Assembly (NCBI GenBank): GCA_025558075.1
Contig: JAHLKF010000014.1
Coordinates: forward strand, 310,001-374,000
DNA length: 64,000 nucleotides
Direction of reading: 5' to 3'
Source of the DNA: Gaertneriomyces semiglobifer
Taxonomy: Eukaryota; Chytridiomycota; Chytridiomycetes; Spizellomycetales; Spizellomycetaceae
The notes beneath the pieces were generated by a model, which was not told the origin of the DNA, searched no databases, and saw only the letters and a program-made list of their open reading frames with translations. The position numbers and the translations under genes were made by a program. Below are positions 3,001 to 58,400 of this stretch, piece by piece (position 1 is the first letter of the stretch; every line of letters begins with the position of its first letter).

Positions 3001-6000
3001 GCAGCAGGATATTGACCTTTTAACGTCCTCGCAGAATGAGTATTGGACGTGTGACGAGGGAGAGGCGCGTTCTTCGCCGCCGCTGCAACAAGACCAGGAG
3101 CTTGCATCGGATGACTGTGATATATCTCCGTTGATAGCGTCGATGACCGAACGTTCAACCCCTGTGGAAGACAACCTTTTAGTAGGTTTTTCACAACGGA
3201 ACGCACGGAACAGGCAGGAACAGCAAATGGCCAGGAATGAAATGAATACGTTTGTTTCGCCGACGCATTCGGTGGATGAAGATGCGAATGAACTTGAACT
3301 TACCGGTGTTTTCGCCGAGGTATTCGCAAAACAAGCCTCGGTTGCCCCTGATATCCCTGATGCAAACTCTAGCTTGAAAGATTTAATGGAGGAAGATGGG
3401 GAAAGTAGTCAATCTGGGAACTGTCATACCCTTCCTTCACCATCGACCATTGGTGACAACCTACAAAACGAGCCACTGTGTCGTGTGTTCCAGCCGCTCG
3501 AACCACCCCCGTCCTACAGCGATTTATTGGAAAGTGATATTCCGAATGTCGTCTATCGCGAGCCATACTACAGCAATCCCAAGGACGTCCCCAACCACCC
3601 AATCTCGTACGCGGGTCGTGAATTCCGATTTGTTCCTGAGGACGTCAAGCGACTGAAAGAGTTTAATACCGCCGTTCGCGGAAAGTTGGGGAAATACAGT
3701 CTTCATGTTATGAAGAACCAAGTCAGAACTTGGACGAGGGCAGAAGACCCACCGTCGGTACAAGAAGCGGTAGAGTGGGTGGCTAAACACCCCCCGGGAT
3801 CGAATCTGAATCCACGTCATGGCCGTGATATGGACATGGCAGACGAAGCCATTCTTCGTAAAGACGTTGGCGCATCACAATTAGACGGGCCGACCCCACC
3901 AAACACATACGGATTCAAGTTCAGCCAGATAAATACTGATATGGTCAGTTACCAAAAAACGTACATGTGCTTGATGAGTCTAGAGATCCACGCATCTACT
4001 CGGGACGATCTCTTGCCGGATCCAGCCAAAGACCCTGTACATTGCATTGTGTACTGTATGCAATGCCAAGACGAGCAGCTGTGGAAATCGCAGGGACATC
4101 GGCCGGGGTATTATGTCGGTATCATCGCCGTACAGGACCAACTTCCGCTGGATAAATGTGCAATAAGAGGATATCCCATCGATTACGTTTCCGACGAGAA
4201 AGGTCTATTGGAACGTCTCGTTCAAAAGGTGCGCGCGTGGGATCCGGACATTCTACTGGGATATGAAATTCACAACGCTTCTTGGGGGTACCTCATCGAA
4301 CGTGCTGAGCATGGCTACCGAATTGATCTGTGTAAGGAACTTTCACGGGTGATGCCAGACTATGCTAAAACGCGTTTCGGAGATGAAGACGACGAGTGGG
4401 GTTCTCGCAAGCAATCCTACATTCACACTACTGGAAGAATCTTTTTGAACGTCTGGCGGTTGATGCGTGCAGAAATGGATTTGACATCATATACTATTGA
4501 GAATATGGTATATCATGTGCTTCACCGGCGCGTACCCCACTACACGGTGCAGACGCTGATGAATTGGTATAAAACGTCGGCGCGGTCTCGGTGGCGGACG
4601 GTCAAATACTATATTGATCGAGTGCAATGGTCGCTCTCGCTACTCGACGACATGGACATCATCAGTCGCACATGCGAATTCGCGCGTGTTTTTGGTGTGG
4701 ATTTTTATTCAGTGATAACAAGAGGATCGCAGTTCAAAGTCGAAGCTATCATGTCACGGATTGTCAAGCCGGAGAACTTTATGATGGTTTCGCCCAGTAG
4801 ACGCGACGTTGCTCAGCAGAGAGCGTGCGAGTGTCTGCCGCTCGTGATGGAGCCCATTTCAAGGCTCTACACTAGTCCCGTCATCGTGTTGGATTTTCAA
4901 TCGTTGTATCCAAGTGTCATGATTGCGTACAATTACTGGTACGGAGTTGTATGCAACCCACCGCCTTGCACATGTGTAACTCTTCCTCTGCAGCTACTCT
5001 ACGTGCCTCGGGCGTGTCCAATCGGTGGGAGAAAAGCACCAATTGGGTGTGCTTGACGATTACGAGGTTTCAGCCGACTTTGTGCAAGAATTTAAAGATC
5101 ATCTGAACAGTAAGTTAAACCTGTGGTGCATCTCATAGCGCACTGTACAAGAGCTTACAATTATACTCTGAAGTCTCCCCAAATGGTTTAGCCTTTGTGA
5201 AACCACATATTCGCGAAGGGGTACTCCGCCGAATGTTGACTGAGCTCCTCGACACTCGCGTGATGGTCAAACAGTCCATGAAACTCTACAAGACTGACCG
5301 GTCCTTACTTCGGATCCTCGACGCACGACAGTTAGGGTTAAAGTTCCTTGCGAATGTTACATATGGATACACGGGTGCCAGTTTTTCTGGTCGCATGCCG
5401 TGTGTGGATATCGCCGATGCAATTGTTCAAACAGGGCGGGCGACGCTGGAGCGTGCGATTGATTTAATTGAAAGCACGGACAAGTGGGGCGCAAAGGTCG
5501 TGTATGGGGATACGGACTCGTTGTTTGTATCACTGGAAGGCAGGAGTAAGGATGATGCGTTCCGCATCGCCAAAGAAATTGTGCAAGAAGTGTCGAAGCG
5601 TGAACCGGCGCCTGTACTACTGAAGTTTGAAAAAGTGTACCACCCTTGTGTATTACTGGCGAAGAAACGATATGTGGGATTCAAGTACGAGAATCCAACG
5701 GATACCGAACCCGAATTTGACGCGAAAGGAATTGAAACCGTTCGACGAGATGGGTGTCCCGCCGTGCGCAAGATTATGGAGGCCGCACTAAAAATCTTGT
5801 TCCGAACGACAGATCTTTCACTGGTGAAGAAGTATCTCGTTCAACAATGGAGAAAGATTCTTGAAGGGCATGCGAATCTTAAGGATTTCATTATTGCCAA
5901 GGAAGTGAAGTTGGGCACGTACAGTGCGCGAGGCCCACCACCACCGGGTGCAGTGGTTGCGATGAAACAAATCGAGAAGGATCCACGAGCAGCTCCACAG

Positions 6001-6729
6001 TATGGGGAGCGTGTACCCTACGTTGTCGTCTATCGGGAACCAGGCGCAAGATTGGTGGACTCTGCGGTTGGCGTGGAAGATCACGTTGTGAAAGGGTGAG
6101 CCGCTGCTTACTCACGACTTCATTCGGCTAAATGCAGCAGCTAAACATTACTGGTTTGAAAAATGTAGGAAAGGCCGCTTACACGCAATATATTACATCA
6201 CCAAAATGATTATACCCGCGTTGAGCCGAATTTTCAGCTTGGTGGGAGCCGGTAAGTCCAATTAAACACAGAAACCGTCCGTCGCTGTCATTTTCTCACT
6301 CGTCTTTGTTGTCGAATAGATCTCAAGAGTTGGTTCCACGAGATGCCACGCATTCGCGAGTATAAACCTGATATCAGTAAAGATCCACGCAACAAGGGAA
6401 AGGGCCCTGCACTGGACTACTTTTATGCAAAAAAGAAATGCGCTATTTGTGGGGTGGAGGTATCGCCTCCTCCGCTGATGGGTTTCAAACAAGTCCAGCT
6501 CCCTGAGGATGACATCCCACTATGCAACTCTCATGCTGGCAACCTTGACCAGACACGCTTTGACCTAGCCTATCTTACTCGCAAGACGGAGAGCAAGAAG
6601 CGAGCTGTTTGGGAAGTCTGTCGGAGTTGTGTGGGTGGGGATATAGAGGCGGCGGCCTCGTGTATTGAGAAAGAGTGCGAGGTGTTTTATGAGAGGTGGA
6701 AGGTTGGGGGAGACAAGTGGTCGTGGTAA
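50..6729 (+). CDS. REV3: DNA polymerase zeta catalytic subunit (REV3)
   Basis: Family B translesion polymerase, catalytic subunit of Pol zeta, acting in the nucleus to extend from mispaired or damaged primer ends. Six exons fit: 50-299, 378-4938, 4994-5109, 5192-6095, 6169-6251 and 6320-6729, giving 2,107 residues. Seen: an N-terminal family-B domain (to about residue 230), a long acidic/serine-rich middle (about 230-1180), then a conserved polymerase core. Polymerase motif A reads DFQSLYPSVMIAYNY (about 1588), the second core block reads LKFLANVTYGYTGASF, and motif C reads YGDTDSLFV (about 1747). Splicing of 4939-4993 restores YCYSTCLGR, a strongly conserved string. The C terminus has CysA (CAIC...LCNSH; the fourth ligand is His, not the usual Cys) and CysB (CRSC...CIEKEC), the latter being the 4Fe-4S site that binds Pol31/Pol32-type subunits in known REV3. 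Start ATG is the first in the window; no upstream exon can be excluded. Confidence 0.95.
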
Positions 6730-24791: not shown

Positions 24792-26214
24792 CGAATGACA
24801 GAGTCGAGATCGATATATGGTTTTCTTTTTTGGATTGGATTTCCGTTTCACTATAGAATTAGCGTAGATCGAGATGGATCTGCATACGGCGAGTTTGCTT
24901 CCTGGAGGAAGGGAAGGAGGTACTGTTTCTCTTATTGAGATGTAGGATGCAGCTTTTCTGTCCACTGTCGAAATGGAAGCGGGTTAGCGTTTTTCGACAG
25001 AAGAGATCCGACAGTAACATGATCATTGAATGCTCCGCCCGCAAAAAAAGCTCGACAGTGGTGAACGCAGTAACGCACCAAGAATAAGCTGACATCCAGG
25101 CTACTAGAACACTTACCGAGCAGGGGTATATTATGGAATATGCTGCGAAGCAAGAAGCAATAACGGGATGATGACAATCGTGAGAGTCTTGATCGTTTAA
25201 ATTTACTCACAGCAGCAAACTCTGTACTGTTGCGCTGGAAACGAGCTTGCTTCCGTGCCTACTAGTAGCTGTGGGAAATGCTTGTTATGCCTGGATGCTG
25301 TGCGTTTGTGTATGTATGAATTTACAAGGTGTGCCCACGGTGTGTGCCGTGCAGGAATCGCGGGACGGAGCTCCAGCCGCACTCAAAAAAAAAGTAGTGT
25401 GCACCGCTCTCTCTTCTTCTGACAGATGACCTCTAGGTCTCGGGCTCTCGGTCTCGCGGGCTCTTGATGACCTCTCTCAAGATCAAGCTCACCGCATCCA
25501 CACACACACCAACAATTCCCAAGCAGCAGATGCGGTCGACAAGCAACTTTTTGTTTGTTCTTTCGCGACTCGGCCGTCACGTTTCCACTAATTATCACTC
25601 ATACAACGCTCCTCCGACCGGCGACCGCCCCGATCTGTCCCATTGCGTAACAACAGTCCACTGTTGCATGCAAGAGGGACATTCTCGCTCGTAGATCTCG
25701 AGTCGTAGTTCAATTCACACTCATTCCAGTACCCATCCAGATCCAGGAAGGATAGGATCTGGACATGGGATCCTATGCATACATGCAATGCGCATACTGG
25801 GATACCCCCCCTCCCCACACACACACACACACACACATGCACAAGCCTTGTCTCTGCCCGCCCTCTTCCTTTTCTAAACCCCCCCAATGCAAAAGACCCG
25901 CTATCTCGCATATGAACTGAACTTAAATTTGCGAAAAGCGCACACCAAAGTTGGTGCGACGTGCGTGCGCGTACGCGTTTCCCTCCGAAAACTCCGCCGT
26001 TCAGTGTTAGGGCTCAGGGTCACCGTGCCGCATGATTTATCGGTCAACCACATGACTTGGCGCGTGGGCTCATGTGAGAGCAATGCTTACGTCAGCTGAT
26101 TACGCAGCAGAGCCGAAGAAGCCGCGAGCGTGAAATTGTCGCACTTTTGTCTGAAACTTGACCAAAATTAAAACACATTTTCTCACTGGTGTATGAAGCT
26201 CAACTGTTCACACA
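24792..26214. other. Divergent intergenic region
   Basis: About 1.4 kb between the zinc-finger gene (leftward) and the F-box gene (rightward), so it should hold both promoters. It contains CA repeats near 25498 and 25818-25840 and a GC-rich stretch near 25960. No further gene is visible. Confidence 0.5.
25818..25840. repeat. (CA)n microsatellite
   Basis: Roughly eleven CA dinucleotides preceded by a C-rich run. A simple microsatellite in the divergent promoter region. Confidence 0.9.
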
Positions 26215-27689
26215 ATGGCGCCAGAGGCTGGAGTAGAGGATGATTTGGAAGAGTTCCGTACGAAATGGAAACAGGAGTTGCAGGACCGTGAGCGGCGCGC
26301 GAAAGTCGCAGCGGGAGCTGTCTCGAAGCGTCAGCAGCAGCAGCAGCAGCAACAGCCACCGCGCATAGACGATTCTGCTCTTCAAAGGGCCCAACCGTCA
26401 TCTGCGGAACAAATACCCATTGCATCGGCCGCAAGAGCATATACCAGTGCATCTTTTCACGAGGTGGCCGATCCTCTTGAAGCTTTCGAAAATGACGCGG
26501 TTGAAAGTGTGCATCAAACCGAGGATAAACACACGCGTGCGGACAGGCTGTACGAAGAGGGGGCGCGATACGAGAGAATCGGATTGATTGCTTCGGCCAT
26601 TGCAGCCTACAGAGCGGCACACAGATTGGATCCTACGGTGGATGTGAGGATGCGCGATAAGGAGCGAAGTCGCCTGCGCGATCTGGAAAAACAAAAGTCG
26701 TCGACCGATACTCTATCAGCAGAGCAAATGCTTTCAAAACTGAGTATTGTGGAAACTCGCGTGTCAGCGACCAAGGTGTCTGGTGCTGCGTCAGATGTGG
26801 TGAAAGAAGACCTGCCGCCGTTACTCGCACTGCCCTCCGAGCTTTTGCTGCAGATCCTCCTCACAACCGTTGTCAACCATGGACTTCATATGATTGCTCG
26901 GTTGGTCTTGCTCTCCAACCGCACACGCGATCTCGTATCATCTCCGGCGTTCTATCGCCTTTTGTGTCATCAACTCTTCATGCCGCGCCCACCGCATATT
27001 TCCCTTACCGACCAAGTTGGTGCACTATATGGTGGTTCATGGTTAAAGGGCCTCCAACTCACACCGCGAATTCGCTTCGACGGTGTGTACATAAGTCACG
27101 TCACGTATCTCCGACCAGTTTACGCCGAAACCTATTACACACCCACTCATTGCATCACATACTTCCGATATTTAGTTTTTACACCACGACATACGGTGTA
27201 TATGTTGACAACTACACAGGAGCCTGCGCTGGCGATCAAGTATCTGCTGCCATTTTCGCGTGGACTTAAGCCTGATGAGAAACCGGTTTTGGTGAAAGGG
27301 CTGATGCAAGGCATCTATTCACCCATCAGTGAGACAGGACTGGTGGACATGCAGTTTAAAGCGTGGGATAGGCCGGGTCTTCGCGCTCGAATTAGCGTCG
27401 AGATTTCCAACCGAAAGCCTGGAAGATGGGACAGAGTCAAATGGGGTAAGTTTTGAGTGCTCGTTTCAGAGATCCACGCCTTTTATTCATTGGATTCATG
27501 CCAAAGTCGAGTATTATCAACTCAGAGACAGCGACCCGCAATATAGATCTGATATCCCGCTGCATACCCTACGAAATTTCCATTTCTCGGTGAGTGACTG
27601 CTCTAACCTATCTATGCAATTATGTTTTGTTGGTTTGCTTACTCCTTGCACTCCAGCATGTGCGATCCTACCCACAGCGGCTTCTGTAA
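26215..27689 (+). CDS. FBXO9/Hrt3-like F-box protein
   Basis: Likely substrate adaptor of an SCF ubiquitin ligase, 448 residues in three exons (26215-27445, 27507-27589, 27657-27689). Seen: a charged N terminus with an eight-glutamine run, a TPR-like helical repeat (YEEGARYERIGLIASAIAAY, about residues 108-127), an F-box beginning PPLLALPSELLLQILL (about 202), then the conserved C-terminal region with YISHVTYLRPVYAE and a final FHFSHVRSYP, which is diagnostic of FBXO9/Hrt3 (family ends in an FxFSrVrSY-like string). That string is only read when the last two introns are removed. In yeast and animals the family acts in nutrient signalling and TTT/TOR complex turnover; that role here is inferred only. 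Confidence 0.88.
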
Positions 27690-27894: not shown

Positions 27895-30800
27895 TTACAT
27901 TGTTATCCTTTCCAAGGCAACCACAATCTGCTCTATAGTAGGTCTTTCGTTTGGGTCCTCACTGATACACCTTTTAACGATTTCCGCAAGTTCACTTCTA
28001 ATGCCTGACTGTGCGGCGGGCGCTTCCGAGGTAAGCACTTCGTCAAAAGGATATCGTTCTCCTTCGCACACTTTCCACATCACGGCAGCGTCGTCCAAAC
28101 CCTCCCACGGGATGCGTCGCGTTAAACATTGCCAAAGCACGACACCAAGGGCGTACACATCCGCAGTGGGGTGTATCAGTGCCTGTTCGGACGCGAAACA
28201 CTCTGGCGCGGCAAAGCGTGCAACCAGGTACGATCTATCCACTGGAAGGTCCATTGCGTTCGCTGCACTGAAATCGGTCAGACGCGCGCGCCAGGTGGTT
28301 CGTGGTGGGGGTGCTTGGAACGGTAACAACGATTGACGCAGCGATACGTGCGATGTGTTCTTTAACCGTTCCAAGAGGATGGATCGAGGTCGAATGCGCA
28401 AGTGGACGTGGTTCAACGAGTGGATGGCGGCGAGTCCACGTGCGACGTCCAGAATGATGGATTGCACTCGGGCTTCGGGCATGTCGAAGCGCTTGTTGCC
28501 GAGGATGTAGTCCAGATCACCTTCATAGAGATCTGTAACGATCACACGAGGGATGGTGCAATATCCAACGATTCGAGCAATGCTGTCTTGAGTGGAGAGG
28601 GCTGCCATTAATGTGACTTGTCGTATGAAGGCTGTTGCGGTGGAAGTATCATCCTGACAACCCGGTCGCCGCCATACGTGCTCAATGGCGACCCGTCGTG
28701 GCATGAAACCCTGGTCTTTGGCGAGGGTACCCGCGTATATCCGCTTTTCGAGGTTATCGCTAGGAAGCGGATCGCCCATTTTGAGGTCGGTGTTGTAGTT
28801 GAGTTGGAGTCGGGCGGGAAGAATGTTGAAGTCCGCTTCTGTTGTAACTGGTGCGGTTGATGAGGATGCCTCTGCTAAACGCGCCACATTAGGATTCGCA
28901 GTGAGAAAATGATAACGCGGCGATCCATGTGTCACTCACCATTCCCTGGGTGGCGCTCTTGAACTGGTCTGAACCTCGATAATCGCGTGGTAGCTGTTCC
29001 CGGAGCTGTGGAGAACCGTATCATGTCGGCTTCACTTCGTGGACGAGCCACTGAGAAACGTATGAGGTCTTCCTCAATCGCCTCTTCTATATTAGGAAGA
29101 TGATCGTGATTTTCGAGATCGATCGAATGTTTTGTTTCATTGAACATATCCCGCGCGGACTGTGACTTTATTGCGCTGATCGGAGGGGAGTGAGACACTT
29201 CGAGGTCCTTCCCGGCTGACCCTACCAGATTCGCAGCACTATTACCCGCAGTAGTAGCTTGCGATTCCCCTGCAAACCGTTTTCCGAACATGGACAACGG
29301 TCGTTTTATCATCGCCGAAAAGCGCTGTCCACGCAACCCACTTCCCATACCACCCTCTAGCACATCACCCAACGCCCCGATCTGTCCAGACTTGCCCAGT
29401 GCGTCCACACGGTGAGCCGCCATCGCGGTTTCCCATTTGTCCAAATGCTGGTCAGTTTGTCTGAACCGCTTGTCCTTGTTATAGTTTCGCACGCAGAACA
29501 GAAGCGCGACGGATCCGATCACGAGTACGATGGCGATGATGCCTGGTACGTACCAGTGCTTTTTCACCCATGCACCCGGGCTGAGGCGGACCGTGCCTTG
29601 TGGGAGTCCGTTGACGTCGTCCTCGTCGACGATGGTGGTGGTGGTTGGTTCGGAAGTGGGAGTGGTTTCGCTGAGGTCGTCGCCGCCGCCGGCTATTGGC
29701 GGTGGGGTAGCCTCGCTTGATGTGGTTGACGAAGGCTCGCTCGATGTGGTTGAGGAAGGCTCGCTCGATGTGGTTGAGGAAGGCTCGCTCAATGTGGCTG
29801 GGGAAGGCGTTACCGAAATGAGCACGGTAGACACTACTTGACAGATACCAATGTCGCAAGTTGGTGCGGAGAGCGGCGTTTGGGTGATTGTAACGGGCGG
29901 TTGGCTGATTGTCACCGGCTCTGGAGTCACTGTGACGGTATCCGGGATCACTGTGACCGGATCTGGCGTTACCGTCACCGGTTCTGGAGTTATCGTAACC
30001 GTATCCGGACTCACTGTTACCGGTTCTGGGGTCACCGTCACCGGTTCTGGAGTTACTGTGACCGTGTCCGGGCTCACTGTTACCGGTTCTGGAGTCACTG
30101 TAACCGTATCCGGACTCATCGTCACCGGTTCTGGAGTTATCGTAACCGTGTCCGGACTCACTGTTACCGGTTCTGGGGTTATCGTAACCGTATCCGGACT
30201 CACTGTTACTGGTTCTGGAGTTATCGTAACCGTATCCGGACTCACTGTTACTGGTTCTGGAGTCACTGTGACCGTATCCGGACTCACTGTCACTGGATCT
30301 GGAATCACCGTAACTGGATCAGGAGTTACTGTCACTGGAATCGGAATCACCGTCACTGGATCCGGAATCACTGTCACCGGGTCTTGCGTGATGGTCGAGA
30401 TGGCTGCATAACCTGGTCAGAGATAGAGCACGACGAATAAAGATCATCCATGTGGTCCACTTACTGAATGGAACGCATGCTCCCAGCTCATTACGGTATT
30501 CACCCGCAAGGCATACTTCGACACATTGCGATCTCCACAGTATTTTTCCGGTTACGCATGTCAAGCATTTAGTAGAGTCCATACATTGTGTGCATCCAGC
30601 GGGACAAGCTGCAAGAAAGCACGATAAGCAAAGACCTCGTTAGATCAGCCTCGATGACCGGACTCACTTTGACAGATTCCGTTGGCGTCGCGTCCGTATC
30701 CTCCGGGACAGGCTACCAAACATTGATTGTTGTACAGCACGTAAGGACTGCGGCATTTAGTACACATATCATTGCCGAGACCGTCACATTCCGCGCACGC

Positions 30801-33800
30801 TGGATGACATGCTATATCCAGAAAGGCCTCAAGCTCAAGAAGAGTTCACGAGACGGAGTAGTCAACGTACCTTCGCACCGTTGGGGATTCGTCGGTGTAA
30901 AATAAGGCATTTTGATCAATACGCTACCGGCGTTGCATAGTGGGGCGCCCTTGAAAAGCCTCGCTGAACAGGATGCCGCACTTAAATAATTCAACGGGTC
31001 GCAACTGTTGCAGCCCTCCGTGGACGCATCACCGGGGGCGGCGCAGGTGGCACAAGTCCAATGGCAGGCTATAAACAAGGTTTCGTTAGCATATTCAATG
31101 TACATAACGGGCATCATCACGCAACGCACAGGAAAATCCGGTCCAGGGATACTGCTTTTCCGGGACGATCTGCTGATGGTATTTGCTCGCAACTTCCTGG
31201 GCGATACGATCCGCTTCTGGGCGGTTATCAAGGCCAAGATTAATGAAACCAGGTGGTACAGCTTGCGGCACACATTTTCCATTCACCAGATTGTTGCCCG
31301 GAAAGCATTGGATGCATTCCAAATCTGCTTTTTGATCAGTATGTTTCATCATTGGATTGGGGTTGGCACTGGTTCGCGGATATTTGTTGGGATCGTCCCA
31401 GAGGCCTTTACTTGGCGGGGTATAACCTGTGGCTGGATCCCAAATTTGTAGCTCCAACGGACCAAATCTTTGGGTCATCGTCTGCGCCGTGAGGTTGCAA
31501 ATCTGATGGAAGGTAAAATCCTTGTCGAAGCTGTAAACGCCTTTCTGGCATCTGTAGAGGTATGGTTCACCCCACCCCGACCATCCACCTCGCGCTATCG
31601 TCTCATATGCGGGTCCGGCGCGCTGATCAGGTTGCAGAAAGTTTGGAACATTGTTTACCAGCCCCTGGTATCCATATTGCGGGTAAAGTTCGCCGAGATG
31701 AGTCGCGTTGGACCGGCCCAAGAAAGCCAAGTTACCCCGAAGCGAAGGGTTGGCAGCGATCTCCGGATCCGTAATATATGTGCTCTTGGTCCGACACCGG
31801 TGACAGCCCTTTGGACACGCTGTAACGACAGCAGTTCAATTTTTGAAACAAAACGTATCAAAATAAGCATACATGACATTAGTACTCACCGTCACACATG
31901 CCCTTTTGTATGCTATACCAGTTGAACCAATTACCCTTCTGGGCATCATAGTCCAGAACACCGCGTGCCGGAAGATTGAAAACGCCACTTGGCGTAATTT
32001 TGTCAGTGCTCTGCCATGCTTTGAACTGCTTGACCGTTTGGCCATAAAAGTTATGGCACTCTAAGCTCCCACGGTCCCAAAGGTAAAACGCGTCCACATA
32101 GGTGGGTTCTGGGTAACTGACAACAGATGGTGTCCAGTACGCCTGAATGCGGTTCCGCCAGTCGACCGTCGTACCACCAACTGTGAGGTATGCTTTTCCC
32201 TCGGCGCTATCGGGATACGGCACTTCTCTCAAGTACCACTTTGCAGGAACCCACCGCGCCCAGGGCAGACGAGCTCCAGCTGAACCAGGAGGGCCCATGG
32301 AATTGTTAACGGGGGCCGATTCTGGTAGAGCAGGTTCATTCCATCGCGGCCAGATACTCTTCGCGGCGGAATCGCCCCATTGTTCATACATTTCCGGGTT
32401 GGTGAAGCCCCGGTCAATGTCAAGGCAATGTGTTTCCGAAAGACATTCAGTGCAAGTTAAATTGAAAGTTGATAAGGTTTCGGAGGGCTTCGGGCCTTGA
32501 TTGTAGTCCTTCATGTGCTCAGCGGCCAGTTCGTTGGTCCAACTTCCGAAATAGGCGCCAAGGTCCCTATAATGCATTTCGACCTGCCGATTGAAAGGCT
32601 GACATCCTAACAAGCGAGATATTTGTGGTCAGACTACCATTGAGCGTCCGATTGTTGCAAGAACAGCAATCCGCACTTTTACACTCAACGTCGTTCCAAA
32701 ACCATCCCTTAGAGCAAAAGGATGTGCCGTCTGGCTTCGTTTTCGGAATGCAGACAAGTTGATTCTCGAGTGGGTTTGCGGGGTCATTAACCAACTTTGT
32801 TCCTGGGAGACATGTTTTGCAGTAACCGGTGGTGTCATAACATTCAATACAGCCTTTCCAGCACCCTTCATAACTCAATGTGAGTATATTCGGAGCAAAT
32901 GCCGGACTCAAAGAGCTTGCCACTCACGAACACAGTCGCCATCTTTGTCTTTATAAAAGCCCGGCGCACACACACTGCACGGTGTTCCCGATGCTGGCGA
33001 CGTCCAACCAAAATGGCATTGGCATCTTTTGATTGCGGTGTTGCAAATGCCGTTGAAGCCGCAGCCACCCACACAGCCAATCTCTAAAGCGTAACTATCA
33101 GTCATTCCAATTACTCAACATTAAACAAGAGCCGTTCCAGCAGGAACCCACGTTCATGTAATACACCATTTGCACCAGTAGCTACAGCGTTGTTGAGTCT
33201 GAAATTTTGCCTCTTCACGCTACACCGGCCGTCGGGACCGGGGGTATAAGCCGGACCACACAAGCATTTACCGTCACCCTTAACCCCTCCCCGGCAAGCA
33301 CCTGAACGCAGCAAGTAGCCTCCATTCGCTTCCGTGGTAACCTTTTGAGCTTCAAAATCGGGGTACGCAGGATCAGATGGGTAAACAATAGGACCGCAGT
33401 CCGGGCATTCGTACTGGCATCTGGACCCGTAATAACCGGGTTTGCAATCACAGGGTTTCGTTGAGGAATTAAAGTTCGGCCCAGGGCACTCAGGTTGATC
33501 ATGGTAGACTGTCAAACAAAACACCCATAAGCGATCATAAGCGGAGTATGCCAGAAGTAATGACTTACTAGTAGGTTTGCTTGGGTATAGAGTCCACGAG
33601 GTCATTATATTAAGTCCAATATTTTCTAGCGACGGCGTATCGTAGTAAAGGGCGGCCAACGGGCTGCCATTACGCCCACGTCCTTGGTAAATTAGTGCTT
33701 GCCATCCATTGCGAATTTTGATTGACCCAAGAAATGTATTGCCATTATCGTCGGATATGTATAAGCCTTCGTCGTACAGCTTCACAGCAATGCCGGAGTA

Positions 33801-34036
33801 ATTTGGCTCTGTGTAGACAGTGACGTTGACATCGACGTCGACCACTGTTGTAAGAGCTGGCACTGCGTGAGATAAGGACTAGCGCTCGAAATTCATAGGA
33901 CCTCACCACTTTGTCCGCTAGTCCCTGGCACACGTAGGAGAACAAGAAGAATTGCAAGAAATACCCAAGCGATTCGCTTTCCTGCAACGCTTGTTCGCCA
34001 GCTACCGGGTGGCCGATCTTTCTGGTTCATGAGCAT
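27895..34036 (-). CDS. Receptor-like transmembrane pseudokinase
   Basis: Large single-pass membrane protein, 1,823 residues. Exons: 34036-33907, 33862-33569, 33508-33152, 33083-32928, 32865-32677, 32606-31890, 31819-31130, 31068-30871, 30811-30668, 30608-30465, 30412-28940, 28874-27895; all joins keep frame. In order: N-terminal hydrophobic signal (AWVFLAILLVLLRVPG); a beta/gamma-crystallin-like segment (VTVYTEPNYSGIAVKLYDEG); EGF-like and furin-like cysteine-rich modules (CDCKPGYYGSRC, GCVGGCGFNGIC, CWKGCIECYDTTGYC, CPAGCTQC); a Pro/Thr stalk of VTVTPEP repeats; one membrane helix (PGIIAIVLVIGSVALLFCV, about residue 1290); a Ser-rich juxtamembrane region; a C-terminal kinase fold. The kinase lacks a Gly loop, has VAIE for VAIK, HLRIRPRSIL for HRDxKPxNIL and DFS for DFG, while the APE-like AAPE and ADVYALGVVLW are kept. 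It should be catalytically dead. Ligand and partners are unknown. The acceptor at 32866 and the donor at 32676 are the least certain joins. Confidence 0.85.
29900..30390 (-). repeat. 42-bp coding minisatellite (VTVTPEPVTVSPDT stalk)
   Basis: About a dozen copies of a 14-residue unit, VTVTPEPVTVSPDT and close variants, encoded by 42-bp repeats inside the receptor gene. The unit lets the plus strand stay open in other frames too, giving spurious long antisense frames. In fungi and other eukaryotes such Pro/Thr stalks are usually O-glycosylated and hold the ectodomain away from the membrane or through the wall. Confidence 0.9.
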
Positions 34037-39135: not shown

Positions 39136-40353
39136 TTATCCCTCTCTTTCCCTTTTCTGCCTTGAAAATGGATCCCGCACTCCATCTACTGGTGGAGGCA
39201 CCAGTAACTCCCTCGGCAAAGCATCTACCCTTCCCAAGAATGTCGGGAACGGTACTTCACTTCCAACTGGAAAAGTGCGCTTTTTCCATCCCTTCTTCGT
39301 ACTGTCCCACATGCGGACGAATCGGCCTTCTGTGCCAGGAACAGCGCCTTTTACATACACGAGGTTTTCCTTAGTATCAACTTTGATGACTCGAAGGTTT
39401 TGGACGGTAGTCGTTTCGTTTCCGAGTTTACCCGGCATCTTTTTACCTTTCCAAACACGGCCCGGATCTTGGCAGTTACCCGCTGATCCCAGAGATCTGT
39501 GAGCGAGTGAAACACCGTGTGACGCAGGCTGGCCGTGGAAATTCCACCGTTTCATAACACCTGCAAACCCTTTTGCCGTAGATTTCGCTTGGATGTCAAT
39601 AAATTGACCGGGGAGAAAGTGTGGAGCGACGAGCTTTGTTCCTATAGTGCATGACAGGTTATTTTTGTGATCCCAGGTATGCGAGAAAAAATCTACGTAG
39701 ACATCCGTACCAGGCCGCAAGCAAGCATCCGGAGTCACCCTGAATTCAGTCACTTTGCGCTTGGGAGTCACCGTCCACCTTCTAAAATGGAATAATTGCG
39801 GTTTCTTCACTCTGTGAAGTCTGGGATGGTTAACGGCTCCCACTTCCACCATGTATGAGCCGCATCCAGAGTGGTATCGCGTGCGAATAACCTCGCAATC
39901 CACAATCTAATGATCGACAAGGACTAAATAAGTATAATTCCCGGATAGAATATGTTGGTTCTTAAATTGTACCTGAATGACAGTCACAGGGGTCAAAACT
40001 CCCCACTCATCCCAAATGGCCGTCATTCCCTTTTTTAAACCCACAAGGCCCGTTCGTCTACTTTTTCCATATTCAAAAGTCGGTTTGCTAAGGGACGGGT
40101 CGGAAGACGGGTAGATAGCGGGTGGTGCAGGATTGAGGTGGGGCAAGTATGGTCGGTTAAGCAGTTGTGCTGTCGATGATGGGATAGATGAAGGAAGGTC
40201 TGTTGGTTGCGTCGGTGCAATTTGAGCTCCAATGATTCTTCCGGCACGCAGTGTCCTTGAACCGCCGATTTGAAGTCTTGCAAATCGGGAAGCGAGGGCG
40301 CTCGGCGACGACGCCACCGCTGCAGCCTGTGTTATCCTCCTTCGTGTCAGCAT
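39136..40353 (-). CDS. Mitochondrial large ribosomal subunit protein uL3m
   Basis: 383-residue mitochondrial ribosomal protein L3 (yeast Mrpl9 class), in two exons (40353-39973, 39906-39136). The N terminus is basic and Ser/Ala-rich without acids (MLTRRRITQAAAVASSPSAL), a good matrix-targeting sequence. The L3 fold begins TGLVGLKKGMTAIWDEWGV and continues VTVIQIVDCEV across the splice. The signature GFAGVMKRWNF then GQPASHGVSLAHRSLGSAG is the peptidyl-transferase-proximal loop shared by all uL3 proteins, followed by GKKMPGKLGNE. The intron 39972-39907 has a GTACAA donor and a TTAG acceptor. Head to head with another mitochondrial ribosomal gene about 200 bp away, which suggests a shared bidirectional promoter. 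Confidence 0.93.
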
Positions 40354-47393: not shown

Positions 47394-49142
47394 CTATACC
47401 ACAAATCCACACACCGACGCCAGCCCAACGGCCACCGCCCAAGCAACAGGGTTCCTGAGAGTCGAACCACCATTCACAAGTGTCGCCCCCACCTCTTGCA
47501 TTTCTGCACTCACAGTCTGCTTGTTCTTGTTCCTCCAATAGACATAAGGGTTGGAAGCTTCAAACTGTGGATCAGAAGGCGGGAGGCGTGATGGCGGAAT
47601 CTGACTATACGTCCGGCTCTGATCCTTGGAAATGTCACCTGCAGAGAGCGCGTAGATGGGCAAATCGTTCGCGCCCTTTGGTTTATCAGATCCGCCTTTC
47701 GAGACGAAACCGGCTGGGAGGGTGATAACTTCAATCCCCGACGCATCGATAATCAGTGGCAAGTCTACATCTACAACCGTTGGTTGTGGGGCGGGAATTG
47801 GGAAGGGGACATCGTTAGGGTTGATTTTAACTGTGGGGGTTGCCGGTGCAGTGGGCGAAGGGGCAGCCGGGATCGAGAATGGGATGTCATTCGGGTTCGG
47901 GTTTGCCGGTCTTGTCGGCGCGGGCGGGTTGGCTGGGATTATTGTGAACGGGATGTCATTTGGGTTTGGTGGCGGCGTGGTTGAAGGAGGAGGCACTGGC
48001 GGCACGTCAGACGGAGAAGGGAAAGGAGGCAAGTTGGGAGGTCTTTCTGTGACTGTAGGTTGAGGTGGAGGTGGCGGCTGTTCGGTGACTGGTGGTTGCG
48101 GAGGTGTAGGCGGTTGCTCGATGACTGTCGGACGAGGTGGAGGCGGCTGTTCGGTGACTGGTGGTTGGGGAGGTGTAGGCGGTTGCTCGATAACCGTCGG
48201 ACGAGGTGGAGCCGGTTGCTCGGTGACCGGTGGCAGAGGAGGAACGGGTAGGATAGTCACCGAGGGTTGTGGGTCTTCAGTGACCGTTGCCTGCGGTGGC
48301 TCCGTGGTTGTTGTTCGAGGCGGCCCGGGCAACGTAGGAAAGGCAACTGATGGGAACCCAATCACGCGCGAAGTGGTGGCTACCCGCGGTGCTTCTGTTT
48401 CGCTTTGACTGGTCGCGCTTGAGCTGATAGAAACAGGAACCTCCGAGGTCGCTGTCGGTCCCACACTTGTGGTTAGATCATTGTCATTCACCGTTGCGCT
48501 GGTGGAGGGAACCACATCTGTGGTAGGTTTCGCAGAAGATGCCGGTACTGTGGTCGTTTCCGGTACTTCATCGGCGGGGATAGTCCCGCTCACGGTTGAC
48601 GTAGGCTTGACTTCACTCGCCGTACGCTCCGTTGCAGACGCCGATACCGAGCTCGGCTCCCCATTCTGTTCCGCCGGCACCGTCGCACTGGCGGTCGAGG
48701 AAGCTTCAACTCTAGTCGTTGTCAGCTCCGCGGAAGAGACTGGCGCCGTACTCGGCTCTGCCGTCTCTTCGGCTATCACCGTAACTTTCACCGTCGAAGA
48801 TGCTTCAACTGCCACTGTGGATGTCACCACAACGGTGCTCCTAGTAGCCTCATCCCCTCGAACCGCACTTGTGCGTGTAGGGATGCGCTCTTCTGCACTT
48901 GTAGCTTGAACAGCAGTGGGCTCCACGATTTTACTGGTTGCCCTTGGGATGTCTTCAGCGACGGCAGTCTCCCTCTCTGTACTGGTAGCCTCTCCTCTCA
49001 CGACATCCCCAGCGGCGCTGCCGACAACTTCTACATCGGTAACGTTTCGTACAGCTAGGGTGCGTCCAAAACCGGTAGGTATGGTTTGTACAGACCCAGT
49101 CATCGCAACCAGTGCGATGAGAAGAGTACTAGCAAACTTCAT
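47394..49142 (-). CDS. Secreted mucin-like protein with GPI-anchor signal
   Basis: 582 residues, single exon. N-terminal signal peptide MKFASTLLIALVAMTGSVQT. The body is Thr/Ser/Val/Glu-rich (about 60-270), then Pro-rich with repeats: PPVTEQPPPPRPTVIEQPPT occurs twice, and NPNDIPF (or NPNDVPF) three times. A short ordered-looking block (VDVDLPLIIDASGIEVITLP) follows. The C terminus has a small-residue site then a hydrophobic tail (NPVAWAVAVGLASVCGFVV) as in GPI-anchored proteins. Most likely an O-glycosylated cell-wall or surface protein. No catalytic domain is seen. Repeat number is likely to vary between strains. Confidence 0.75.
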   Translation of the reverse strand: MKFASTLLIALVAMTGSVQTIPTGFGRTLAVRNVTDVEVVGSAAGDVVRGEATSTERETAVAEDIPRATSKIVEPTAVQATSAEERIPTRTSAVRGDEATRSTVVVTSTVAVEASSTVKVTVIAEETAEPSTAPVSSAELTTTRVEASSTASATVPAEQNGEPSSVSASATERTASEVKPTSTVSGTIPADEVPETTTVPASSAKPTTDVVPSTSATVNDNDLTTSVGPTATSEVPVSISSSATSQSETEAPRVATTSRVIGFPSVAFPTLPGPPRTTTTEPPQATVTEDPQPSVTILPVPPLPPVTEQPAPPRPTVIEQPPTPPQPPVTEQPPPPRPTVIEQPPTPPQPPVTEQPPPPPQPTVTERPPNLPPFPSPSDVPPVPPPSTTPPPNPNDIPFTIIPANPPAPTRPANPNPNDIPFSIPAAPSPTAPATPTVKINPNDVPFPIPAPQPTVVDVDLPLIIDASGIEVITLPAGFVSKGGSDKPKGANDLPIYALSAGDISKDQSRTYSQIPPSRLPPSDPQFEASNPYVYWRNKNKQTVSAEMQEVGATLVNGGSTLRNPVAWAVAVGLASVCGFVV

Positions 49143-49820
49143 CCTGGCTATTCTACCTCTATTATTTACACAATCTATATACTAATACTCCATCCGTCTT
49201 TATGAGTGCTGTTGTTTCATTCGTTCAAGAGGTATCGAGTTACCTTCACCAACCTGTCCAGTATATATACCCGGTGCAGTGGCACCACAACTCAACGAAA
49301 AGAAACCGGCCATTGGTTCAGCAGAACAAAACCTTGTACGCTTGTACACCTGCTCCGTTACGGTTTGCGAGTGGACAAAACCTACAGCATACACACTCCA
49401 CAAGAAGTACTAGAATGGCACCCTCACTGTGACCAGAGCCGCAGGCGTCCATCCACCACCAAAATTCCCTCATCCACCGACTAGAAAATGGGAGGGGGAG
49501 TCCCGCGAAACGCGTCGCACGGAGCGGAGTAGTTTACATAATCACCGCTACGCGTCGCGCCGAGTTATTCTTGAGCGGATCGTCCGCTTGTAATACCCCT
49601 CTTTCCCTTTAAATGGAAAAAAAGCTAAAACGCTTGCGGACAACGTGACGGACGGCCGTCGGTTTCTTACGGGCGTCGAAAAGCCAAATGGGTGCGATCT
49701 TGCAAGTATAAATGAGGCAGGGTGGCGATCGGCCTTCCTGAAATCATTGAACATTCACAACGGAACTAAGAAGTAGCATTCGGATATCACGCCTTTCAAC
49801 GCGTGTTACAGCCAGCAATC
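49143..49820. other. Divergent intergenic region
   Basis: About 680 bp between the mucin-like gene (leftward) and a small gene (rightward). It contains a TATA match (listed) and a GC-rich pair of ACGCGTCGC elements near 49510 and 49550. Confidence 0.4.
49706..49714 (+). promoter_or_regulatory. TATA-like element before the 153-residue gene
   Basis: GTATAAATG lies about 110 bases upstream of the ATG at 49821, a usual distance for a fungal TATA promoter. Confidence 0.4.
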
Positions 49821-52476: not shown

Positions 52477-55400
52477 ATGCCGGGAAACCTCGCCGCCAGG
52501 GGCCGCCCATTTGAACCCAAAGAACGAAAGACCAAGGTGAAGGAAGTGTATCGACATCTGCGCGCTTGGTGCATTGTTTAACTGTTATACCCTTTGCAGC
52601 GTATCGCTTCCATTCTGAATGATTACTTAGAGGGACCCGTAATCTTGAGGGAGCTAATCCAGAACGCTGAAGATGCTGGCGCCACTGAGGTGTTCTTCGT
52701 GCTAGACGTCCGCTCCCAGCCAAGGGAGAAGCTCATCTCTCCCGGATTGAGAAAATTTGCTGGCCCGGCACTGCTTGCCGGGAATAACGCGGTAGGATGC
52801 TGTTGCAGTTATGACATCTTCAATCTCTAACATCATAGAGTAGGTCTTCAATGAGGACGACTATAAAAGTCTCAGCAACATTGGTGATTCTGTTAAAAAG
52901 GAAGATATCACCAAGACGGGCAAATTTGGCGTTGGCTTCCTATCCGTGTATCATTGGGTACGTGGTTACTTTTCAGAATTGATCATTACCATATAAGTGA
53001 CCATTTGTGCAGACGGACTCGCCTTGCTTTATATCGGGAAACAGCTTTGTCATTTTAGAGCCGCACGGAAGATCGGACACTTTGGACGGCCGCGAAGGCA
53101 TGCTGTAAGTTTGTAGCCGTTAATCGTAATCTTACTTCGATATACCCACCACCTGTTTTGCAGGTTTGATTTCGCCGACTTACGCCGCCATTATAATGAC
53201 CAGTTAGCCCCGTTCAGTGCATTCCACAAAGATTTCACGCAGCCTTACAACGGCACGCTCTTTCGATTCCCATTACGAACGAAGAAGCATGCCTCAGAAT
53301 CGGAGATTAAATGTCACCCGACCCATCCCCAACACATTTTAAACGACGTATTACCTGCTCTGTTCCACGACTCGGTGGATTGCCTTCTTTTCCAACGGAA
53401 CGTGGAAACCATTCGGTTCTTCAGACATGATGATGGAATGTCAGCACCAACGTTACTATACGAGACACGTATCTCAAACATGGATACGGTCCAAGCAGAA
53501 CGTTGCAGGCTTGCGCGTTACGTTAAAACGTTAGCAGATGCGCCAGGCCTAGGGTTTACGACGTCAATTCCGTACGAGATAAAGCGCTCCCATTTTTCTG
53601 GTAGTGAGAAAGTTGGTGTAATGACATCTACGTGGTTGGTTCAACATGTCATCAAAAGCCGCTCTCGTGCTGAGCAAATTGTTCGAGAGTTCGACATCCG
53701 AGCGAACGAGGCAAAATTGGTTCCTTGGGGCGGCATTGCCGTCTGCATCGACCGCGGGTGTGACTATAAGCAAAGCTACGATGGCAAGCTATTTTGCTTT
53801 CTTCCTTTATCTGCGACCATTGATCAGCCTGCCCATATGCACGGATTCTTTGCTCTGCCTTCATCGAGGCGCGAATCTCTCTCTGGGGATGGTATGATTG
53901 GAGTCAGCCATGGCTTGGTTCAGTGGAATCAATATCTTTTGGATGAAGTAATTGCCAAAGCTTACGCCCAATTGATTTGTGCGGCAGCCAATACTCAAGG
54001 AATACTTGCAGGGGAACACTGGCCTAGAGCAAGCAAAGTGCTGGACAACCGAGACATGTTGGCCTCAGTGCGGCTACTATTATCTCACCTCACGAGTCAC
54101 TGATTGCAATTCAGGTCCCGTGCATTAGAAATGAGGCTTTTATGGCGTTGGAAGATTTGGGACCCATAATTGTCACAAATGCGAATATCAAGTTTATCCG
54201 GATCACTCCTAGCGAGTGTCCAGCCGTGGGAATTCCGATTCTAGATGGGAATGCGTATTTCTTACAGTGCGTTATTCCGTATCTCAACGGCACCGCTCCC
54301 GCTGCAGAGCTGGAGTTGTTGAATGTGTTCTTATCCAAGCCTGAGGTAAGCTGCTGCTTGCCTAATACTGCAATAGCCTGTAATCAAATTGCTTTCTTTT
54401 GATAGCATTATACAAACAAAAGCTTGTGCATGCAATTGGCTAAAGCAAAGTTTGTACCCACTAATGACCATTACGGGTGCATTGAAAGTTTATTTGCTCC
54501 AAACCATGCTCTACGAGGAATATATGAAGGAGAGGCCGTCTTTCCCATCGGTTCTTATGCAGACAAGAGTGTAATCGACGGCTTGATACGAATTGGCCTC
54601 AAGAATCAGCTAACTTGGAACGATGTTATGGAGAGACTATCGTATCTCAACAGTGCTACATGGAGCAAGGCGGTACACTCCAAAGCAACTGCCCTGGCAA
54701 ATTACTTGGACATGCATTTGGAACAAATTCTTATTACTGACGAATCGCGTTGCTCGGAAATGGAAAAGGTATTGCGGGTTGCGAGATGGTTCCCTGAACA
54801 CACCGGTGAAGGATTATGTAGTCCGCGAAGTGCAAGGCCACTTGAAGATGCATACTTGGTCGGCCTCGTTGCCCCCATCGCATGCGACGTAGGCACTGCC
54901 CTCAAGCGTCGCCTCGGCTGGAATAATCCAGCCTCGCTTCAACTTTTGATAGCGCAACTGGCGAAGCTCTTGAAGAATCGACCTCTCGACTTTTTACCTA
55001 TTTCTCAGATTTACGCGTACATATCTTCACATTTGGGCAAACAAGGCTACGAACATGAGACCGTCATCAAAGAATTTTGGGAGAATGCGCTGATTGTGGC
55101 AGATGAAGACATGCCAGTTGTTGTTTCAGCAGAACGTGTTTCTCGTTTCCCTGGACCAGTTCAGCTGAAACCGGATTACTATCCTCTCCCGAAGATTTTG
55201 AGTGGAGACCGCTATCAAACACTTTTCAAGTGCATTCTGAGGGAGAAGTGTGGTTGTGCCGAGATGTTAACAATTTTGGAGCGCTTTCCTGGCCGTAAGA
55301 AAAAGGCGACGGTTGCAGAAATCCGACAGGTTATCAACATTGTGAAGTATCTTGCCCAGAATCACCCGGACACTGGTCCACAATGGCTACTTCCGACGAC

Positions 55401-58400
55401 AACCAACGACTTCGTGAATGTGAGCGAGATCCATTACGATGATGCTGGTCGAGGGTTCTCGCGCACGGGTGTGAGGGATAAATACAAAATTGCGCATCAC
55501 CTTGTTCCGGAAGAGCTAGCACGTACGCTTCATCTCCAATTGCTTTCAAAGGCTTTATTGTTAGAAGGAATCACAAAATGGACGCCTTTTGAGCAAGGCG
55601 AGTCGTTAACTGCTAGGTAAGGGTCAAGTTGACTTGTTCGCTGACACTGCGAGAGAATATTCGACTTACTTCGACCTGTAAGAATCCAAAATGTTCTAGA
55701 AGATTACGACGAGCAGAGTATCTGCTACGAAATGATTGCCAACGCAGATGGTGAGTTGAGTCGCGTGTTGAAAGTCAGATCTGATCTGACCTCTTGGTCG
55801 GACAATCTTCAGACTGTGGCACCGCTCGGAAGGTGACGTTCATTATGGATTCAAGGACTCACCTACCGAAAACGTCTCTGCTCTCAAAACACTTGGGGGA
55901 TTGGCAGGGGGAAGCGCTCTGGGTCTATAACGATGGAAATTTTACAGATCAAGATTTTAATTCCCTGCTGAACTTGGGAGTGAGTAGTAAGAAAGGCAAC
56001 GGCTCCATTGGGCGCTATGGGTTGGGTGAGTCATGCGTATTTTCTCGCAGGTTACACACGCTAATACTCTCACCAGGCTTCAACTCGGCTTACTCTTTAA
56101 CGGATGTTCCCATGATAATCTCCAACGACACTTTTTGTATGTTGGATCCAAACAAATTGTATGGCCCTGATGAAAACGAGGGAGGAGTGAAATTGGAAGG
56201 GCTGTCAAAATCCGAGATCTTGAAGGCATTTTCTTCTCAATTTGAGGTCTTCGAGGACTTGATCCCCAATTTTTCGGTAGCTCGACCATCCCAAGGGACT
56301 TTGTTCCGGTTTCCTCTGCGGTCGACAGGAAAGCTGGTCGCACAAAGTCAGATAGGCACGCACATAACGGAGATGTCCTCGATCAGGACGATGCTTCATC
56401 ACCTCAAGAGTGTCTCGCACAGGTGCGTTGGGCATTGTTTTGCTATTATTTTGTAATTTTGCGAAGGTAATCTCTGTTGTCAGTATCTTCTCATTCATGC
56501 AACGGATTGAAGTTATTCAAGTCGTGGAGGTCTCCGGTGTTTATACCCGTGGCTGTAGAGTGCCCGACCGGGTAACTCTTTGGACAGCAGAGGTCACCAA
56601 TGTGACCACTAGTCTTCGTCAAGAGAGGAGCTATTTAGCCCAAGCTGCACTACATTTCAATAGTGGCACTGTTGAACTAATGAATTGCCAACGAGAAATA
56701 TTTGACTTGAACGTTTCCATCGTGGAAAAAGGAAGGCAGCCTCTGGAGAGAAGCACTATTGTTTGTACAGGCATTGACCCTGACTTGATAACCGACGCCA
56801 ATGAGGATATGCAGGCCTTTGTGAGAAGTTGTGGTTTGATTCCAACTGGAGGAGTTGCCGTAACGTTGCCGGATGCGAAATTCTCCCCAGAAAGGGAACA
56901 ACCGGGTCTCTATTCATTCCTTCCTTTACCAGTGACCACCCAAGGGATTCCACCAAGGACGGCTTTGGTACGTGCCAGGGCGTTCTGTTAAACCTTCTGC
57001 TGCTGACATTTTCCTTAAGAATGGCATGTTCGCTCTTACGAGTGACCGCATGACTTTATGGTTACGTGAGAACCAGAACTTAACTATTGCCAACGAGCAG
57101 CGCAAGGTTCAGTGGAATGAGCTTATACTTGGCAGGCTGCTACCATCATTGCACGCGCATTTATTGGAGCATATCGCCGAGCGCATGTTTTTCTCCGGTC
57201 ATAGAGCGATCTTTTCGACCGGCGCGTTTTATGAGCTCATGGGAGTTATTACCGACTCGACCTTGTCATGGATTACGCAATACATGATTGCCCTTACCAA
57301 AGCCTTGTATCTCAAGAGAGTGTTATTTTCACCAGGAATACCAGTGGGAAAAATTAAGAAACAGCTCATTGCTCCATCAAACGGTGAGCTCATGGAATGT
57401 ACCCTTGCAGAAGACGAACAAAAAGTGCTGTGCATTCTCCTTGACAGCTACGGCAACGAAGGCCATGCGCCAGTTTCATTACCATCAGCGGTGTTCAAAA
57501 ACTTTGAGCAAACATGCGAGGTGATCAAAGTATCGCCAGAGTACATCAGCACCTTGGTGTCGGAGCGCAATGGAGTTGTCGACGCCGTTGCAAGGGGTTC
57601 TCAGACGCTCTCGCAAACCATGACGAGAACCATCGTGCCTATCATCAACTTTATGACGCGGGAACCAAGCTGCCGGCATCTGTTAAACCTTGCGATTTTT
57701 CCGATCGCGGATGGAAGCGTCCAATCACTGGCAGGTGAAGTCAAGTACGTCGTTCGAAGAAAAGTGGCCGACACGCGATGGGATGGGCGAAATGATTCAG
57801 TGTCTGAAGATGAACTTGATGTCCACTCCATTGCGGCTTTGAAATTGCACGCTGCTGGGATTTGCAAAGTGTTATACCCTTACTCAAGACCGTTGCTAAA
57901 TACTTTGGATCAGCTAGTTGCGACAAAAACGCTGCCTATTGAACATCCGCCGTCAGCTGTCATTGGAAAACTTCTGCGTACACATCCACATGTCACACAA
58001 CGTTACGCCTGGACATTTTGGGATGTGATAGGTATGAGTAAATAAATGGTATATGTGTTCGGCAACAGTGTGCTAACGAACAATTAGTGGCGCCTGGAGC
58101 AAACCCTGAAGACTTCCTTGGCGTACCAATCATTCCACTCTACAATGGGACACTGGCACCCTTTCTATCTGTTGAAGTTCTGGAACATCCGCTTACGGAA
58201 AGCGCGAAGTTTTTGCAAATAATGGAAAAGTTACACTTCACCTATGTCATCGACTTGGAGTTCCAAAGAACAATTGCTCAACATCCACAATATTATGAAT
58301 TTGTCCGTCCTTTCACGGCGCAGAATTTTCTGCAAGCGTTGGGTCGCTCTAACACCAGCGTGGAAGAGTTCCAGACATTGGACCATGTCGAGCTCGCACT

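Follow-up and report, generated by a model that had tools for sequence, protein, structure and literature searches.

Receptor kinases join a signal peptide, an ectodomain, one membrane helix and a cytoplasmic kinase domain in a single protein. This architecture was not found in fungi in a study of 72 genomes, which reports no similar group apart from hybrid histidine kinases (Kiss et al., PMC6733946); the word Spizellomyces is absent from the main text of that paper. Fungal kinases resembling tyrosine kinases (TK) and tyrosine kinase-like kinases (TKL) have been described, including the FslK kinases, of which 6 of 241 are from chytrids (PMC3937382), and the word transmembrane is absent from the main texts of two papers on such kinases (PMC3937382, PMC2838846). 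The nearest layout that we found in the literature, compared by description, is that of the Entamoeba histolytica transmembrane kinases (EhTMK, families A-F), which have a signal peptide, an ectodomain containing CXXC-rich repeats, one helix and a cytosolic tyrosine-kinase-like domain (PMC2880585). Here we analyzed a 64,000-nucleotide stretch of the chytrid Gaertneriomyces semiglobifer (contig JAHLKF010000014.1, positions 310,001 to 374,000, assembly GCA_025558075.1; hereafter the window) and describe a gene within it, the receptor-like gene, that is predicted to encode a receptor with a dead kinase domain. An initial annotation of the window had remarked that fungi are generally described as lacking such receptors, which agrees with the 72-genome study.

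The receptor-like gene runs on the minus strand from 34036 to 27895, and its 12 exons join into a single open frame with an ATG at 34036 and a stop codon ending at 27895. The exons were placed from splice sites and reading frames, with the end points and the count of 12 from the initial annotation already known to us; the sequence fits both. The features of the gene are listed below.

Exon 1, 33907..34036, minus strand: start codon and signal-peptide-like segment, with a phase 1 donor.
Exon 2, 33569..33862, minus strand: betagamma-crystallin-like domain (about residues 57-138), by PDB sequence matches.
Exon 3, 33152..33508, minus strand: Cys-rich segment, EGF-like by pattern alone, with no significant family.
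Exon 4, 32928..33083, minus strand: Cys module with a laminin-EGF-like pattern (EGF_laminin match only at E 2.4).
Exon 5, 32677..32865, minus strand: Cys module with an uncertain acceptor (AAG).
Exon 6, 31890..32606, minus strand: large ectodomain segment without a Pfam match.
Exon 7, 31130..31819, minus strand: Cys module and a large insert without a known family.
Exon 8, 30871..31068, minus strand: furin-like Cys module, with weak Pfam and PDB matches.
Exon 9, 30668..30811, minus strand: furin-like Cys module (Furin-like_2 at E 0.0095, under the cut-off).
Exon 10, 30465..30608, minus strand: furin-like Cys module, with weak Pfam and PDB matches.
Exon 11, 28940..30412, minus strand: Pro/Thr-rich repeat stalk, membrane helix and juxtamembrane segment; first base 30412 or 30403.
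Exon 12, 27895..28874, minus strand: kinase-like domain, by Pfam and alignment.
Tandem repeat encoding the stalk, 29910..30384, minus strand: period 42 nucleotides, 11.3 copies, 81% matches.
Membrane helix, 29490..29549, minus strand: by hydropathy; the stretch is also found in a relative, P0005.
Juxtamembrane motif copies EEDLIRFS and EADMIRFS, 29010..29075, minus strand.

Exon 12 carries the strongest assignment. It matched PF07714 with an E value of 1.4e-23 (84 bits, cut-off 23.1) and PF00069 with 1.2e-22 (81 bits, cut-off 31.7), which places it in the kinase family. The top PDB sequences were MLT/ZAK, TAK1, ILK and CTR1, followed by receptor tyrosine kinases; by these best matches the domain is nearest to TKL and TK kinases. 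Of the features of an active protein kinase (VAIK Lys, HRD Asp, DFG Asp and glycine loop), the receptor-like protein retains the DFG Asp alone, within DFS (from 28275). It has Glu in place of the VAIK Lys (codon 28683-28681), Gln in place of the alpha-C Glu, and HLR in place of HRD (from 28404).

When exon 12 was used to search a protein database, the search reached proteins of about 180-572 residues, so that short models were favored. Five of the 19 rows returned were close relatives (E 1.1e-112 to 1.8e-84), from Powellomyces hirtus, Geranomyces michiganensis, G. variabilis, Fimicolochytrium jonesii and Spizellomyces sp. 'palustris'; the remaining 14 were from bacteria or from sources without an organism name (E 1.1e-6 to 9.8e-4). 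According to a taxonomy look-up, P. hirtus, G. variabilis, F. jonesii and the genus Spizellomyces (via S. punctatus) belong to the order Spizellomycetales. No protein of S. punctatus itself was among the rows of our protein database searches. The five relatives, referred to as P0003 to P0007, are 54-58% identical to the receptor-like protein over exon 12 and 55.5-58.5% within the domain.

The same broken motifs are present in these relatives. The HRD Asp is replaced by Arg and DFG by DFS in all six proteins, with HGR in the five relatives and HLR in the receptor-like protein. The VAIK Lys and the alpha-C Glu are kept in five of the six and the DFG Asp in every one, while the GxGxxG glycine loop, judged by eye on the alignment, is kept in none. 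The APE motif could be read in five; P0007 lacks that stretch and resembles a faulty model. Pseudokinases are defined by the loss of at least one of the VAIK Lys, HRD Asp and DFG Asp, and in many of them HRD becomes HGX with X frequently basic (PMC4718504). With the HRD Asp absent throughout, the domain is by sequence a pseudokinase, and the call made in the initial annotation is borne out. Within the domain, the relatives are 73-94% identical to one another, which suggests that the dead domain is still used and is apparently maintained by selection.

Upstream of the kinase-like domain, exon 11 encodes the stalk, the membrane helix and the juxtamembrane part in one frame. The stalk comprises 285 residues, 69% of which are P, T, S and V. 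The helix lies at about residues 1292-1311 (hydropathy 2.73) and is the only hydrophobic segment besides one at the N terminus (2.02), which by the hydropathy scan alone looks like a signal peptide. By eye, the positive charge flanking the helix is greater on the cytoplasmic side. About 200 juxtamembrane residues separate the helix from the kinase-like domain and contain two copies of a [DN][LM][IM]RFS motif; P0003 and P0004 have three copies each, and P0005, P0006 and P0007 two each. Our guess is that these LIRFS-type repeats may be a phospho-switchable docking site; a clathrin box or a 14-3-3 site would be further candidate readings. A genome-wide search with a degenerate DNA pattern for [DE]LIRFS found 9 places, including the receptor-like gene itself, against 10 for the reversed control, and was uninformative.

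The ectodomain is rich in cysteine: 66 of the 73 Cys residues of the protein precede the helix, two of them in the stalk, and the Cys-rich segments extend to about residue 1006. Eight N-glycosylation sequons also lie ahead of the helix. When exon 2 was compared with PDB sequences, the best 7 of 10 rows were betagamma-crystallins (E 0.002 to 0.017, with clostrillin at the top), which weakly suggests a betagamma-crystallin identity. Exons 8-10, taken alone, matched Furin-like_2 at E 1.3e-4, with 22.5 bits against a cut-off of 28, and thus fall below the Pfam threshold for a furin-like Cys-rich domain. All 12 PDB rows for these exons were the EGF receptor (1) or R-spondins (11), at E 0.01-0.86, and in a genome search with Furin-like_2 the sole match, at E 0.0095 and under the cut-off, was the receptor-like gene. 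As to EGF families, Pfam gave only the EGF_laminin match in exon 4, and the PDB sequence search gave none. Furin-like, although below its cut-off, fits the Cys modules better than EGF, for which there is the Cys pattern only.

The exon structure of this region was compared with that of other genes. All 11 introns of the receptor-like gene are GT-AG introns of 44-70 nucleotides in phase 1, and several exons each encode one Cys module flanked by phase 1 introns on both sides. In animal extracellular proteins, such symmetric phase 1-1 exons are a sign of exon shuffling. As a control, we attempted to place 25 introns at 20 places in this genome where kinase matches are split; 10 could not be placed. 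The seven placed confidently were in phase 0 (three), phase 1 (one) and phase 2 (three), and one of eight weakly placed introns was in phase 1, giving 2 of 15 in total, although many of these introns lie near one kinase position and are not independent. Phase 1 in 11 of 11 introns, as opposed to one of seven confident controls, indicates that this phase is apparently no general habit of the genome. Two acceptors are uncertain: that of intron 10 is either 30413 (1,823 residues) or 30404 (1,820 residues), each of which keeps the frame, the second with the better branch point fit by eye, and that of intron 4 was chosen since the frame stays open.

Taken as one gene, the model has a signal-like start, a Cys-rich ectodomain, a Pro/Thr stalk, a single helix and a cytoplasmic kinase-like domain, the last identified by PF07714, in one frame. 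This is the receptor-like order of parts set out in the initial annotation, and the layout of a kinase-dead receptor is well supported by the predicted protein. We consider it probable, with a clear margin of doubt, that the product of this one gene is a type I membrane protein acting as a non-catalytic receptor, and we infer a role in sensing. In such a mechanism, the crystallin-like and furin-like head would bind a ligand or a glycan of the wall or surface, and the stalk of roughly 285 residues would keep the head off the membrane, perhaps spanning the wall. Binding or pull may then cause the protein to cluster or reorient, and an active kinase or an endocytic adaptor could dock on the pseudokinase and the LIRFS repeats. 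The protein's mode of action would resemble that of HER3-type or plant receptor pseudokinases inside the cell and that of yeast Wsc sensors outside it.

Several observations weigh against this reading. By codon usage the modelled frame was the best of six in 8 exons out of 12, the exceptions being exons 4, 5, 9 and 10, which are short and Cys-rich. No Pfam family was found in the whole ectodomain at E up to 5, exons 6 and 7 being large segments without one, and Pfam Crystall gave no match in exon 2 and, at E up to 1, none in a six-frame search of the genome. Of the crystallin/EGF-type ectodomain initially proposed, the crystallin part stands weakly, by PDB matches and not by Pfam, and the EGF part is limited to the Cys pattern. 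AlphaFold predictions were of low confidence, with a mean predicted local distance difference test (pLDDT) score of 44 for exon 2 (one sequence) and 43 for the kinase exon (six sequences). Finally, all five relatives are annotated at 418-540 residues without the ectodomain, which is so far known from the G. semiglobifer genome alone. No relative bearing it was returned by a search with residues 1-1090, covering lengths of 1,003-3,190, or by one with the membrane and cytoplasmic part, covering about 793-2,522, with some 8,000 candidates scored in each; proteins of 573-792 residues, or beyond the upper ranges, lie outside all three relative searches. The former returned two proteins with a common Cys-rich repeat (PF15913) and no kinase domain listed, and the latter six kinases (E 2.5e-7 to 6.1e-4), with no named fungus among their sources.

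The short models and the missing longer chytrid relatives are what would be expected if the locus held two genes or transcripts, with exons 1-10 encoding a secreted Cys-rich protein and exons 11-12 a separate membrane-anchored or soluble pseudokinase. We regard this as unlikely. An in-frame stop at 30419 directly precedes the acceptor of exon 11, and the first in-frame ATG is at 30119, in the middle of the repeat; together with the single frame of this exon, this argues against two transcripts. Introns 10 and 11 are GT-AG introns with good donors and keep phase 1. Of the relatives' models, P0005 begins immediately ahead of the helix and the others beyond it, and P0005 shares the helix and the juxtamembrane part from its residue 5 onward (34% identity over 198 residues, E 1e-30 in a set of five sequences). 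P0006 aligns from residue 2 and P0007 from residue 1, and both start later in the same conserved stretch, while P0003 aligns only from residue 18 and P0004 from residue 34. With their starts scattered over one conserved stretch, P0005, P0006 and P0007 look like truncated gene models; the relatives' models are likely truncated, perhaps cut at the repeat stalk. The bias of the exon 12 search toward short proteins also counts against reading their lengths as evidence for two genes.

A similarly doubtful alternative is a mechanical wall sensor of the Wsc/Mid2 type, with the stalk as the sensing spring and the kinase-like domain as a folded tail that docks a Rho exchange factor. Wsc tails are not known to be kinase-like, which counts against it. 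A Cys-rich head, a Thr/Pro-rich stalk and one helix are found in Wsc1 (PMC2885430), and the composition of the stalk described above fits this. The receptor-like protein, however, has no Pfam match to the WSC domain (PF01822) and is thus not placed among the Wsc sensors, and the only WSC-domain match of the genome is elsewhere (G000:C6:843909-844139, E 1.2e-6). That the protein is an active atypical receptor kinase is very improbable: the plant pseudokinase ILK1 is reported to be active (PMC9403797) and the relatives keep the VAIK Lys and alpha-C Glu beside the universal DFG Asp, but in all six the HRD Asp is Arg and, by eye, the glycine loop is missing, and the receptor-like protein itself has also lost the VAIK Lys and alpha-C Glu.

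Beyond the single gene, we give about even chances to a broader proposal: that a conserved receptor pseudokinase family exists in Spizellomycetales, overlooked as public models stop at the repeat stalk. On this proposal, its layout would be the first of the receptor-kinase type to be clearly described in fungi, built from symmetric phase 1-1 modules, as animal extracellular proteins were, and with the LIRFS docking motif as its output. In the open-access literature searched, we found no described chytrid receptor kinase or pseudokinase, nor this family. Two papers weigh against the word first. A study of membrane proteins of gut fungi mentions receptor tyrosine kinases in explaining an enzyme class, their presence in gut fungi being unstated there (PMC5168858), and homologs of the MLKL family, a pseudokinase family, are reported in Glomeromycotina (PMC8778642). 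Spizellomyces punctatus, of the same order, is transformable (PMC7213984).

The receptor-like gene is single copy in the genome sequence. No second copy was found in own-genome searches with the ectodomain (E up to 1) or the juxtamembrane part (E up to 10), and the kinase exon matched itself and 14 other places at 21-35% identity, with a best E value of 6.4e-5. An exon-by-exon count gives at least 159 PF00069 matches in the genome. A hydropathy scan covered 34 kinase loci, the receptor-like gene and 33 others, which are part of these exon-level matches; with introns ignored, it is too coarse to show that the layout is unique. One of the 33 (L005) had a hydrophobic segment in frame just upstream of the match, perhaps an intron, and for 11, at least one frame of the roughly 1.5 kb upstream contained a hydrophobic stretch. 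Seven of the 33 had no HRD-type motif, including two long frames, L011 (G000:C25:38130-41702) and L013 (G000:C17:70634-74008), which are possible further pseudokinases; introns could explain the missing HRD.

Other genes were observed in the window. Tail-to-tail with the receptor-like gene, 26197-27456 (plus strand) encodes an F-box-type protein (FBO_C, 9.6e-13; matches to F-box and TPR were below threshold). At 53117-59753 (plus strand), several long open frames follow in a row, the first matching the sacsin domain (PF25794, 2.5e-13) and two others scanned matching nothing; they are perhaps one large sacsin-like gene. A 595-residue frame at 47394-49181 (minus strand), with a signal-like start, a Ser/Thr/Pro-rich middle and a hydrophobic end, resembles by eye a glycosylphosphatidylinositol-anchored wall protein. 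Two long frames at 356-6099 (plus strand) resemble by eye the catalytic subunit of DNA polymerase zeta, and 39136-39906 (minus strand) is an exon for ribosomal protein L3 (PF00297, 2e-20).

Compared with known systems, the receptor-like protein shares its order of parts with the EhTMK but differs in several respects. There are about 90 EhTMK genes as opposed to the single copy in G. semiglobifer; their description names Asn-rich and Cys-rich regions and neither a crystallin head nor a repeat stalk; and a kinase assay appears in one legend of that paper (PMC2880585), whereas the HRD Asp is lost here. Among fungal surface sensors Wsc1 is the nearest (PMC2885430); Wsc/Mid2 proteins likewise have a Cys-rich head, a Ser/Thr- or Pro/Thr-rich stalk and one helix, but the receptor-like protein lacks the WSC domain and has a long ectodomain and a kinase-like cytoplasmic part. 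The FslK kinases, compared by description, share its fungal TK/TKL-like character. HER3/ErbB3 and the plant receptor pseudokinases are, like it, single-pass receptors with a catalytically altered kinase domain (PMC4718504); they differ in the ectodomain and in the host, which here is a fungus. If a true receptor pseudokinase exists in chytrids, which have wall-less motile cells, the loss or re-invention of such signaling in fungi would become testable. The receptor-like gene would then represent a known kind, the receptor pseudokinase, in a kingdom where its layout was reported absent.
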